Assembly: GCF_003428335.1 (NCBI RefSeq)
Contig: NZ_CP031704.1
Coordinates: 1,488,001-1,552,000, forward strand
Length of the DNA stretch: 64,000 bases
Reading direction: 5' to 3'
Source: Solimonas sp. K1W22B-7
Lineage (GTDB): Bacteria; Pseudomonadota; Gammaproteobacteria; Nevskiales; Nevskiaceae
Under the pieces are notes generated by a model. It was given only the letters and a program-made list of their open reading frames with translations. It was not told the DNA's origin and searched no databases. Of this stretch, positions 8,906-63,631 are shown one piece after another. Both the position numbers and the translations under genes were made by a program. The number at the start of each line of letters is the position of its first letter. Position 1 is the stretch's first letter.

Positions 8906-9862
8906 TCACCACCGCACCATCGCCGCGCCCCAGGTCATCCCGCCGCCCACCGCTTCCAGCAGCACGTTCTGCCCGCGCTGGATGCGGCCGTCGCGTACCG
9001 CGGTGTCCAGCGCCAGCGGCACCGAGGCGGCCGAGGTGTTGCCCTGGCGCTCCAGCGTGGTGACGATGCGCTCGCGCGGCAGGCCCAGCTTGTCGGCGGT
9101 GGCCTGGATGATGCGGATGTTGGCCTGGTGCGGCACCAGCCAGTCGATGTCGGAGCCTTTCATGCCATGGGGCGCGAGGGCTTCCCTGCAGATTTCGTCG
9201 AGCGCGCGCACGGCGAAACGGAACACGGCCTGGCCGTCCATCTGCACGTAGGCGTGGCCGCCGATCTCGCCGTTGTCGACGAAACCGGGTACCTGCAGGA
9301 TGTGCGACTGGGTGCCGTCGGCATGCAGGTGGGTGGAAAGGATACCGTGCTCGGGATCGGGCTTGAGCACCACCGCGCCGGCGCCGTCGCCGAACAGCAC
9401 GCAGGTGCGGCGATCGGTCCAGTCGAGCAGGCGCGAGAACTTCTCCGCGCCGATCACCAGCGCGCATTTCGACTGGCCGCTGTTGACGAACTTGTCGGCG
9501 ATCGACAGCGCATAGAGAAAGCCCGTGCAGACGGCCTGCACGTCGAAGGCCGCGCAGGTGCCGGCGCCGAGCTTGGCCTGCAGCAGGCAGGCCGTGGACG
9601 GGAAGATCATGTCCGGCGTGGTGGTGGCCACGATGATCAGGTCCAGGTCGGCGGCCGTGATGCCGGCCATCTCCATCGCCTGCCTTGCCGCATGCAATGC
9701 CAGGTCCGAGGTGTGCTCGTGCTCGGCGGCGACGTGGCGGGCGCGGATTCCGGTGCGCTGGAAGATCCACTCGTCCGTCGTGTCGATACGGCTTTCCAGC
9801 TCCTGGTTGCTGAGGCTCTGGGCGGGCAGGTAGCTGCCGGTGCCGACGATCCGTGAACGCAT
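8906..9862 (-). CDS. 3-oxoacyl-ACP synthase III (FabH-like)
   Basis: The protein has 318 residues. The catalytic triad sits at the positions of classical FabH: C112 (AVCTGF), H245 (VPHQAN) and N275 (GNTSAAS). Such enzymes condense acyl-CoA with malonyl-ACP. The gene is alone, away from any fab cluster, so it may be the housekeeping initiator or a specialised homologue. The ATG at 9862 has AGGAG 6 bases upstream. Its 5' flank is occupied by a 266-bp structured repeat. Confidence 0.9.
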
Positions 9863-9933
9863 GTACCGCTCCTGCGAGGAAGGGGTGAGGGGCGGGCATC
9901 TTAACCGAGGCAGAACCGGGATTCGCCACCCGA

Positions 9934-10199
9934 AGGGCCTACCAACGCTACCGCGGTCGCTGCGATGCCCCCGTATTTGCCGCCAGGCACGACGCGAGGA
10001 AGACGCTTGGTGGTTCCAAGTAACAGACGAGCAACACAGCATGGCGGCAAAGACGGGGGCACCCGGAGGGCAGGGCCGCTTTGGCGCATGGCGTCGTCCC
10101 GCGCCGCTAATGTACGTCCAGTACACCGCGCGTCTCGGGACATAGCCCTGCGCCAAAGCGGCCTCCGTCGCAGCGATCGCGGTAGCGTTGGTAGGCCCT
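9934..10199. repeat. 266-bp structured palindromic element, copy A
   Basis: Terminal inverted repeats of 32 bases (9934-9965 and 10168-10199) match at 31 positions. Inside are two hairpins. One pairs 9968-9985 with 10042-10059 (17 of 18 match) and carries a smaller CTTGG/CCAAG hairpin (10006-10020). The other pairs 10074-10092 with 10145-10163. No open reading frame of a known type and no transposase is present. It fills the divergent intergenic region between the ketosynthase and the LOG-family gene, leaving about 70 bases on each side for promoters. Copy B is at 38988-39253 and has exactly the same length. Confidence 0.9.
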
Positions 10200-10264
10200 A
10201 GAATGAGATGCCCCGGAGCGGGTGGGGTGCGCTGCTACACTTGCCCTTCCTGGAGGGGAGTGGA

Positions 10265-10990
10265 ATGGAACTGGTCAAGGCCTACAAGAACGAAGAATTC
10301 CTGATGAGCGAGGAGGCGCGCGCAGTGCGCATCCTCTGCGAGTACATGGAGCCGGCGCGGCGCTTCAAGGCCATGGGCATCCGCAATGCCGTGATCTTCT
10401 TCGGCTCCGCCCGTACCCGCGCCAAACCCGGGCTGGGCCGCGATTTCTACGCCGAGGCCGCCGATTTCGCCGAGCGCCTGGCGCGCTGGACCACGGACTC
10501 GCACGGGGAGGGGGAGCGCTACTACGTCTGCACCGGCGGCGGCCCCGGCATCATGGAGGCGGCCCACGAGGGCGCCGCGCGGGTCGACCGCAACCTCAAC
10601 ATCGGCCTGGGCATTTCACTGCCCTTCGAACAGCACGGCAATCCGCATGTGGAACTGTCGCGTGCGCTGGAGTTCCACTACTTCTTCATGCGCAAGTTCT
10701 GGTTCCTGAACCTGGCGCGTGCCGCAGTGATCTTCCCCGGTGGTTTCGGCACCATGGACGAACTGTTCGAGTTGCTGACGCTGACCCAGACCGGCAAGTC
10801 CGCGCCGATGCCGATCGTGCTGTTCGGCAAGGAGTTCTGGGAAGGGCTGTTCAATTTCCGCATGCTGGCCGACCGCGGGCTGATCAGCGAGGCCGACCTC
10901 GACCTGTTCCGCATCTGCGACACCATCGACGAGGCATTGGAATACCTGGTGCCGACATTGGAGCGCTACCACTCTCCGGGCGGCGCTTGA
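10265..10990 (+). CDS. LOG family protein (putative nucleoside 5'-monophosphate phosphoribohydrolase)
   Basis: The protein has 241 residues. The LOG/lysine decarboxylase-like Rossmann signatures are present: GGGPGIMEAA (about 97-106) and PGGFGTMDE (about 158-166). Relatives hydrolyse nucleoside monophosphates such as cytokinin nucleotides. The start MELVKAYKNEEF at 10265 follows an AGGGGAG ribosome site; an ATG at 10208 has none. This is the longer subtype with an extra N-terminal segment of about 40 residues. Confidence 0.85.
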   Translation: MELVKAYKNEEFLMSEEARAVRILCEYMEPARRFKAMGIRNAVIFFGSARTRAKPGLGRDFYAEAADFAERLARWTTDSHGEGERYYVCTGGGPGIMEAAHEGAARVDRNLNIGLGISLPFEQHGNPHVELSRALEFHYFFMRKFWFLNLARAAVIFPGGFGTMDELFELLTLTQTGKSAPMPIVLFGKEFWEGLFNFRMLADRGLISEADLDLFRICDTIDEALEYLVPTLERYHSPGGA

Positions 10991-24852: not shown

Positions 24853-24876
24853 CAGGTCGTAGTTTGCTTGCCATTT

Positions 24877-24992
24877 CCCTCTCCCGCTGGCGGGAGAGGG
24901 TAGGGTGAGGGTGGTGTGGCGGCGGTCACGCACGTTGCCGCCGTTTGAAGGCTCCACCCTCACCCCAGCCCTCTCCCGCCAGCGGGAGAGGG
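24877..24992. repeat. CCCTCTCCC-type inverted repeat pair
   Basis: Two short hairpins (24877-24900 and 24969-24992), each pairing CCCTCTCCCGC with its complement, are themselves arranged as an inverted pair with flanking TAGGGTGAGGG/CCCTCACCC. A single related hairpin lies at 30146-30171. It fills the gap between metG and the ferredoxin gene. Confidence 0.8.
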
Positions 24993-25001
24993 AGTTGAAC
25001 G

Positions 25002-34485: not shown

Positions 34486-34517
34486 AGCGCGCGCACCGCT
34501 TCATTCAGAGAGCGGCG

Positions 34518-34589
34518 TAGGAGCGGCTGTTAGCCGCGAACACCGGTGATCATGTCTACCGGCGCTCGCGGCTAACAGCCGCTCCTACG
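34518..34589. repeat. REP-like palindrome (GTAGGAGCGGC type)
   Basis: Perfect 23-base arms (34518-34540 and 34567-34589) differ by only one base from those at 8815-8886. It lies between two convergent genes, like that copy. Confidence 0.88.
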
Positions 34590-38924: not shown

Positions 38925-38987
38925 CTGCGACGCTCCTGGAAATCGGGTGCGCCGACTCTAGCATGCCGGCCGGGTCGGACGACCCCT

Positions 38988-39253
38988 AGGGCCTGTTAAC
39001 GCCACCGCAGTCGCTGCGATACCCCCGTATTTGCCGCCAGGCAAGGCGCGAGGAGGTCGCTTATCGGGAATAAGAGACTGACGAGCAACACGGCATGGCG
39101 GCAAAGACGGGGGCACCCGAAGGGCGGGGCCGCCTGGGCGCAGGGCGTCGCCCCGAGTCGCTGATGTACATCTAGTACACGGCGCGCCTCGGGGCATAGC
39201 CCTGCACCCAGGCGACCTCCGTCGCAGCGACTGCGGTGGCGTTAACAGGCCCT
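38988..39253. repeat. 266-bp structured palindromic element, copy B
   Basis: It has the same length and orientation as copy A. The terminal inverted repeats (38988-39019 and 39222-39253) are perfect over 32 bases. Internal hairpins occupy the same places, including CTTAT/ATAAG (39060-39074), where copy A has CTTGG/CCAAG. It lies between two minus-strand genes and upstream of the secreted-protein gene. The remaining bases of this 350-base gap hold nothing recognisable. Confidence 0.9.
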
Positions 39254-62741: not shown

Positions 62742-63173
62742 TCAATCTGCGAACTGCTCTCCACCCACCAGTCCCACCTTGGTCAGCCCGCCGCGCTGGA
62801 TCGCGGCCATGACGCTGGCGACGACGCGGTAGGCAGCCTGCTTGTCGGGGCGGACATGCAGTTCGGGCGTGATCTCCTGGGCTGCTGCTGCCTTGAGGCG
62901 TGCTTCCAGCGCCGGCAGGTCGGCCAGGGTTTCCCCGTTCCAGAGGATGCTGCCCGAGGGCGCGATGTCCACGCGCACGACCTCGGGCGGTACCGCGGGC
63001 GGCGGCGGGTTGCCCAGCGGCATGTTGAGGTTGACCGAGTGCAGCTGGATGGGGATGGTGATGATCAACATGATCAGCAGCACCAGCATCACGTCGATCA
63101 GCGGCGTGGTGTTGATGTCGACGATGACATCCGGGTCGCCGGAGCCGGCGCCCGATCCGATATTCATGCCCAT
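62742..63173 (-). CDS. exbD: ExbD-type biopolymer transport protein (second copy)
   Basis: The protein has 143 residues. A short Gly-rich cytoplasmic N-terminus is followed by VDINTTPLIDVMLVLLIMLIITIP, the single membrane helix with the proton-conducting Asp (D27), and a periplasmic domain. With ExbB it powers TonB. It is the last gene of the operon. Confidence 0.93.
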   Translation of the reverse strand: MGMNIGSGAGSGDPDVIVDINTTPLIDVMLVLLIMLIITIPIQLHSVNLNMPLGNPPPPAVPPEVVRVDIAPSGSILWNGETLADLPALEARLKAAAAQEITPELHVRPDKQAAYRVVASVMAAIQRGGLTKVGLVGGEQFAD

Positions 63174-63205: not shown

Positions 63206-63631
63206 CTACTGCCGCGGCGGAGGTTCGGTGATGAAGCCGAGCTTGGCGATGCCGGCACGCTGGCTGGCCAGGACGACCCGGCCGACGTGCTCGTAGGCGG
63301 CGTCGCCGTCGCCGCGGATGTGGACCTCGGGTTGGGGATCCTGCTGGGCGATGGCCGTGAACTTCTCGAGCAGCAGGTCGGAGTTGCCGACCTGCTGCTC
63401 GTTCCAGAACACGTCGCCGGCGCGCGTCACCGACAGGGTGATGTTCTCCGGCTTGGTGATGCGCGGCTGGTTGCGCTCCTTGGGGAGCTCGACCGGCACC
63501 GTGCGGATCGCCACCGGGATGGTGATGAGGAAGATGATGAGCAGCACCAGCATCACGTCCACCAGCGGGGTGGTGTTGATGGTGGAGACGACCTCGTCCT
63601 CATCGTCGGCGGAGCCGATATGGATGCCCAT
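63206..63631 (-). CDS. exbD: ExbD-type biopolymer transport protein (first copy)
   Basis: The protein has 141 residues. It has the same build: STINTTPLVDVMLVLLIIFLITIP with Asp in the helix, then a periplasmic domain containing VHIRGDGDAAYEHV. Two unequal ExbD genes in tandem suggest a heteromeric or alternative motor. It lies 6 bases after exbB. Confidence 0.93.
   Translation of the reverse strand: MGIHIGSADDEDEVVSTINTTPLVDVMLVLLIIFLITIPVAIRTVPVELPKERNQPRITKPENITLSVTRAGDVFWNEQQVGNSDLLLEKFTAIAQQDPQPEVHIRGDGDAAYEHVGRVVLASQRAGIAKLGFITEPPPRQ

Follow-up and report, generated by a model that had tools for sequence, protein, structure and literature searches.

Bacterial MITEs are usually viewed as shrunken ISs that hold nothing worth keeping between their ends. 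ERIC, Correia/NEMIS, RUP and other small bacterial MITEs are short, mostly TA-ended and protein-free; in the available portions of the sources they are below 200 bp and mostly A+T-rich, whereas the element described here is 266 bp long, GC-rich and contains an inverted hairpin pair (PMC2229807, PMC10969869). MITEPsy1 of Pseudomonas syringae resembles it in being small and non-coding, in having ends similar to those of an IS (ISPsy2, listed as IS5) and in its CTAG or YTAA target, but it differs in length (100 nt), target repeat (4 nt) and ends (18 nt), and a two-hairpin core is not described in the accessible part of that article (PMC3189936). Two hairpins inside a long palindrome also occur in the REP dimers GTAG-15 of A. 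variabilis, which has ends TATAGGA, and in CGTC-1 of H. neapolitanus; as far as the portion of the report at hand describes them, these carry GTAG or CGTC tags and stems of 5-13 bp, while such tags are mostly absent from the present element (PMC3733652). The closest autonomous systems are found in the IS427 group of the IS5 family (an Acinetobacter IS annotated as ISAba31 family and an IS5 of Azotobacter chroococcum), which share GGGYCTGTTNAC-kind ends and TA repeats with the element but are 821-863 bp long and encode a transposase; in 18 such loci searched the hairpin core had no match at E below 0.3.

This article describes a palindromic element present in two copies, A and B, in the window, that is, the whole stretch of 64,000 nucleotides analysed. 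Comparison of its sequence with those of its relatives suggests, with a probability of about 0.82, that it is a non-autonomous MITE, mobilised in trans by a transposase of the IS5 family (IS427 group). Assignment to the MITE mobility class is well supported by the 32-bp arms, the 266-bp length without room for a transposase, the TA target repeat and the existence of empty sites; the features that point to IS5/IS427 are ends common with an autonomous IS and the 2-bp target repeat. MITEs are a known kind of element; to our knowledge, a strand-polarised hairpin pair kept across genera is new.

Architecture of copies A and B

Each copy is exactly 266 bases in length and has 32-base terminal arms, as a sequence-only reading of the window had described; the arms match at 31/32 bases in copy A and 32/32 in copy B (Table 1). 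The remark of that reading that no transposase is encoded also holds, since 266 bases are too short for such a gene. Copy A is predicted to fold as a Y whose outer stem, of some 33 pairs, leads to hairpin 1 (HP1), a mini hairpin (CCC..GGG) and hairpin 2 (HP2), and copy B folds alike. The folding energy of copy A is -186.9 kcal/mol (z -14.6 against dinucleotide shuffles; z -13.9 for the opposite strand). The HP1 motif AGGCAAGGCGCGAGGAG ... GACGAGCAAC is conserved and includes tandem GA mismatches in most members. Because the left junction of copy A reads AA and not TA, its target repeat has decayed on that side.

Copy A is flanked by a FabH-type gene on the minus strand and a lysine-decarboxylase-family gene on the plus strand, both transcribed away from it, and no promoter- or terminator-like site was detected around it with simple consensus patterns (9700-10400). 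Copy B adjoins a response-regulator gene.

Table 1. Positions of the element copies and their parts in the window
Feature	Position	Strand	Remarks
Copy A, full 266-bp element	9934..10199	+	Orientation: hairpin 1 left
Left arm, outer stem, copy A	9934..9965	+	31/32 complementary to right arm
IS5/IS427-like terminal sequence, copy A	9935-9949		GGGCCTACC..., drifted with respect to the commoner GGGCCTGTT; compared with commonest ends and IS ends
HP1, copy A	9967..10060	+ (inferred functional strand)	Model R1, E 5.6e-19; own HP1 is part of the model
Mini hairpin CCCGGAGGG, copy A	10062..10070	+	Between HP1 and HP2; from the fold
HP2, copy A	10071..10166	-	Inverted relative of HP1; HP1-only model R1 on minus strand, E 6.5e-9
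Right arm, outer stem, copy A	10168..10199	+	
Right TA of target repeat, copy A	10199..10200		Left junction 9933-9934 reads AA
Copy B, full 266-bp element	38988..39253	+	
HP1, copy B	39021..39114	+	R1, E 3.1e-17
HP2, copy B	39129..39216	-	R1 on minus strand, E 5.7e-7
Target repeat TA, copy B	left 38987..38988, right 39253-39254		

Copies A and B differ at 45 positions, and 25 of the substitutions fall on paired positions. When the 100 pairs of the predicted fold of A are traced in B, 85 are unchanged, 1 is kept by a one-sided change, 10 are kept by two-sided changes and 4 are broken. Random placement gave a mean of 1.5 two-sided changes and a maximum of 6 in 20,000 trials, and all the paired changes named in the sequence-only reading were found in the two copies.

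Copies in the host genome and relatives elsewhere

A DNA search of the host genome (5.37 Mb) gave at least 50 matches, with 40 of 72 candidates scored, and 25 copies were extended to full length. Variants of 315, 338 and 366 bases contain extra hairpins, others carry hairpin 2 only, and bare outer stems of about 57 bp also occur. Between copies the outer arms differ in whole blocks while their complementarity is kept. A second, divergent family comprises four loci (L058, L059, L060 and L061, near 475951, 3760099, 3998201 and 2516753, respectively) of 268-269 bp that share the two-hairpin plan but whose ends resemble AGAGCTTATCCG; L057 (4937497), whose hairpins are very similar, seems to belong to a third family in the host genome. 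In L048, L051, L055, L077, L079, L080 and L082, further hairpins of about 50 nt, bounded by GGCCATTGGCC- or GCCGATGGC-like ends, are embedded close to the HP1 or HP2 apex, and these longer, insert-bearing copies stand outside the length count given below. At L224:1728-1862, an element of about 135 bp has the same kind of ends, with a different REP-like hairpin, GTGGGAGCGGCTTTAGCCGCGATGG, in place of HP1 and HP2.

Matches were found in 17 of 61 genomes (own, genus, family and order; at most 12 candidates scored per genome). Elements built on this plan, and of nearly equal length, are also present in further genera of the family as well as in Solimonas, Salinisphaera, Alcanivorax, Microbulbifer and other genomes, which agrees with the mention, in the sequence-only reading, of large palindromes in other proteobacteria. 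The 32 elements used from the public genome scan have a mean pairwise identity of 64%. In total, 102 full-length candidates were collected: 25 from the own genome, 37 kept only at lengths of 255-272 and 40 from public genomes without a length filter. Fourteen of them, with arms matching at fewer than 26/34 bases, were left out, a filter that biases outer-stem pairing upward and leaves the hairpins unaffected. The remaining 88 elements were reduced to 73 by removal of copies at least 95% alike. Length is 263-269 bases in 86/88 full-length elements, part of which had been pre-filtered at 255-272, and in 38 of the 40 public-genome candidates.

With a model of hairpin 1 only, matches at E 0.001 or better were obtained in at least 64 of 249 genomes of the phylum. 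Among the matches listed, 122 places were examined, 52 of which had no clear ends; in the others, spans close to 265, 226 and 160 bp recur and their ends differ, and some of the spans measuring 220-259 correspond to inner TA pairs within the 265-bp kind. The core is therefore common to elements that differ in their ends. Several Burkholderiales-labelled loci, L104, L131 and L144 among them, are elements of about 226 bp with ends GAAACGGCAGTTG and the HP1 core in common.

Copy A had no match in plasmid records or in phage records. Each of three relatives matched 2 plasmid records, and 5 of these 6 matches were listed without an annotated feature beneath them in a gene table that is itself incomplete; such elements seem to go unannotated. 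The HP1 pattern was present in 3 stretches on 2 viral contigs, and the Microbulbifer relative had no match in E. coli. As to whether the element is already catalogued, it has no Rfam match at gathering score, where the only matches of the window are two tRNAs; at E up to 1 there were four weak matches, all to unrelated families. No description of the element was found in the portion of open-licence PMC text searched, where the match to an element string that was examined corresponds to primers in a methods table.

Covariation and polarity of the two hairpins

Covariation was analysed on the 73 non-redundant elements and 85 consensus pairs, against a null of 40 alignments with substitutions re-placed on the tree, by a script written in the manner of R-scape (not R-scape itself). 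Among 6,191 ungapped pair cells, 5,730 are Watson-Crick, 205 G-T, 102 A-C and 154 other. E 0.05 was reached by 29 of 34,980 column pairs, 28 of which are consensus pairs and 1 is not. The significant pairs are located in the outer stem (13/31), the lower part (9/16) and apex (1/6) of hairpin 1 and the lower part of hairpin 2 (5/15), with none in the middle of hairpin 1 (0/5), the middle (0/5) and apex (0/5) of hairpin 2 or the mini hairpin (0/2). In the outer stem, covariation can be explained on ordinary grounds, as a mobile element carries a single recognition sequence at both of its ends; since this stem was also partly selected for complementarity and is a terminal repeat, its signal is the least informative, and the hairpin stems provide the real evidence.

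In each of 19 elements from 18 sources, the HP1-only model matches HP2 on the opposite strand (E 1.2e-17 to 5.4e-5), and by this match HP1 and HP2 are recognised as inverted relatives of one another. Their mismatches differ in polarity. Counted as cells, which are not independent events, the G-T to A-C ratio over the 73 elements is 99:19 in hairpin 1 and 44:43 in hairpin 2, and it becomes 44:17 and 14:43 when two and one helix-end column pairs, respectively, picked post hoc, are left out. In 34 representatives the ratios are 43:13 against 17:17 (p 0.012), or 25:11 against 10:17 after trimming (p 0.02). Tandem GA modules (GA/GA) occupy the two HP1 positions in 58/73 and 45/73 elements and are replaced by full Watson-Crick pairs in 8/73 and 11/73. 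This mismatch pattern is suggestive of selection on a single-stranded hairpin, on opposite strands for HP1 and HP2. The proposal of the sequence-only reading that the fold is maintained finds support in the 73 elements with the tree-aware null, but the mismatch polarity speaks against a single transcript strand as the selected molecule.

Insertion sites and mobility

Target-site duplications and empty sites, which the sequence-only reading had recommended looking for, were both found. TA is present at both junctions in 20 of 28 own-genome copies and missing on one or both sides in the other 8. All 20 TA-flanked copies are located in YTAR, with C (16) or T (4) before and G (14) or A (6) after the dinucleotide; since TTAG on the left occurs with CTAA on the right, the target repeat is not 4 bp. 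Empty sites were searched with 8 joined sites (those of A and B not among them) in three congeners. Six of the eight were crossed, in one congener or more, by a single element-free match spanning both flanks (16 of 24 site-genome pairs), five of them in all three congeners and one in one congener, while the remaining two matched one flank only. At five crossed sites TA is intact exactly at the junction in a congener. A comparison of 39 own and 21 congener stretches revealed no insertion site in common; one pair had a one-sided flank match of 168 bp at 71%. Given the empty sites and the lack of a shared site, these copies most likely moved after the species parted.

Targeting of stop codons was considered and rejected: a TAG stop that closes an ORF of at least 80 codons is created by 18 of 33 copies, but such ORFs also terminate at 23 of 34 ordinary YTAR sites of the window, so there is no enrichment. 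Left-right pairing of the flanks was 5.2 against 4.31 +- 0.23 in 300 shuffles (maximum 5.04), and 4.92 once a copy lying within a palindrome was removed, an excess partly expected from the CTAG target.

Ends and transposase partner

The terminal sequence is of the IS5/IS427 type. In viral stretches an IS5-type transposase starts 7-82 bp inside CTAGGGYCTGTTNAC at 12 of 143 places (10 stretches), against 0 of 104 for the reversed pattern, and such a transposase adjoins a third end variant at 7 of 23 places on viral contigs. The transposase beside element-type ends carries DUF4096 and DDE_Tnp_1. The ISs examined are 821-863 bp long with TA on both sides, within CTAG in three of four. One complete IS from viral contigs (862 bp, ends GGGTCTGTTGACRTTT) encodes a transposase with relatives in 3,088 plasmid records, the best-ranked of which (77.5%) is located on plasmid pAcX50e of Azotobacter chroococcum NCIMB 8003, in an IS with ends TAGGGGCTGTTGACGTTT and TAGGGCCTGTTGACGATT. 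Plasmid pAcX50f of the same strain contains an element with the hairpin core, 265 bp between TA repeats and with ends GGGTCTGTTGACGTTTTG, which shares 16/18 left and 14/18 right end bases with the IS. Of 176 MITE ends, 111 agree with one of the 8 IS ends compared at 13/15 bases or more, with at most 9 for shuffled ends. In the rows shown of Table 2 of PMC3281130, the IS427-group ISs are 832-865 bp long and all but one have a 2-bp repeat; by length, repeat and Pfam domains the partner ISs are here assigned to this group.

Searches for PF01609 and PF13586 revealed no autonomous partner in the host genome, where both are absent, and the end sequence of the window does not occur in any IS5 locus fetched from element-rich genomes; the IS427 link rests on viral contigs and one Azotobacter strain. 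DDE_Tnp_1 (PF01609) is present in 11/20 element-rich genomes and DDE_Tnp_1_2 in 4/20, and co-occurrence of RAYT, IS630 and IS5 domains revealed no partner common to these genomes. The other end types, AGAGCCTGTCTG, GAAACGGCAGTTG and GTGTCCTGT, were matched to no IS. The IS5 ends in G188 and G196 (GGGAGATGCTGAT) resemble, by visual comparison, the ends of element L111; they do not resemble those of the window. The hairpin core is absent from 18 IS loci (14 by end pattern, 4 annotated records; best E 0.3), and the element is hence not a simple deletion derivative of those ISs.

Alternative explanations and proposed mechanism

Template switching or conversion between the palindrome arms could produce paired changes in a fold that is not selected. 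Palindromes are known to be corrected in this way, the outer arms do differ blockwise yet remain complementary, and the bare forms of about 57 bp were read as resembling slippage deletions at the stem base. Such correction is nevertheless an unlikely source of the pattern as a whole, as HP1 retains uncorrected mismatches (GA/GA in 58/73 and GC/AA in 58/73), length stays within 263-269 in 38 of the 40 public-genome candidates collected without a length filter, and mismatch polarity is opposite between the two hairpins. The last observation also bears on the possibility of a structured RNA gene or cis-regulatory RNA, in which the fold of the transcript would be selected and mobility incidental. 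Covariation is strong, the z-scores are near -14, tandem GA pairs are common in functional RNA, and with nothing left out G-T exceeds A-C, 205 to 102; once four column pairs are left out the figures are 105 and 91, and the opposite bias of the two hairpins favours no single transcript strand. Together with the lack of a shared insertion site in the own and congener stretches, of an Rfam match at gathering score and of a promoter- or terminator-like site (simple consensus, 9700-10400), this makes an RNA function of that kind improbable.

Two other transposases are much harder to reconcile with the data. An origin as a REP/REPIN-like element, mobilised by a RAYT (Y1) transposase, would account for the presence of two inverted, strand-oriented hairpins. 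Long palindromes enclosing REP dimers have been reported in the consulted part of PMC3733652, and PF01797 is present in 17/20 element-rich genomes; the same domain is found in 14/20 genomes without a core match, and the best HP1-model match in 10 fetched RAYT loci (E 0.025) is a cut-off match. GTAG occurs anywhere in the core in 9 (+) and 8 (-) of 73 elements and a CGTC-like tag beside the apical stem in at most 4/73, and TA repeats with inverted ends do not fit this already disfavoured origin, which is regarded as very improbable. Insertion at TA within CTAG is also a habit of IS630, and a MITE of an IS630/Tc1-like transposase would show this target preference. RUP and IS630-Spn1 have common ends and TA targets, according to the available section of PMC2229807. 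PF13358 is present in only 7/20 element-rich genomes, the block common to three own-genome IS630 copies starts TATTGAT, unlike the element, and IS5-type transposases lie directly inside the end sequence of the element, and this likewise disfavoured assignment is also regarded as very improbable.

According to the preferred explanation, mobilisation by an IS5-family enzyme, an IS427-type transposase would act on the two ends and copy or move the 264-bp unit between TA repeats, and the autonomous partner would since have been lost from the host genome. The ends enclose a conserved passenger core in which one hairpin is present twice, in inverted orientation, each copy apparently under selection in single-stranded, folded form and on its own strand. 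With HP1 on the plus and HP2 on the minus strand, either DNA strand or either transcript would carry one working hairpin. As a putative strand-specific DNA or RNA structure, the pair most likely helps the element to persist or spread. More tentatively, it might in itself be a selfish structural module, one that MITEs of about 265, 226 and 160 bp, differing in their end sequences, have in common across gamma-, beta- and zetaproteobacteria. It would then be kept because each hairpin is read in single-stranded form and solely on its own strand, for instance by a factor of the host or of transposition; this is possible but doubtful. Here the middle is kept across genera while the ends vary, which provides a testable case of a non-coding bacterial mobile element carrying a selected nucleic-acid structure, and the family supplies the enzyme class for testing that idea.

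Other repeats in the window

Three further repeats were observed. A 32-bp inverted repeat with GTAGGAGCGGCTGTTAGCCGCGA is located at 34516-34589 and is presumably a REP pair of the GTAG type. The inverted repeat TCCCTCTCCCGCTGGCGGGAGAGGG at 24876-24993 has arms 93% complementary with 58 bases between them. Two direct repeats of 101 nt, 77% alike and 464 bases apart, occupy positions 63052-63152 and 63516-63616.
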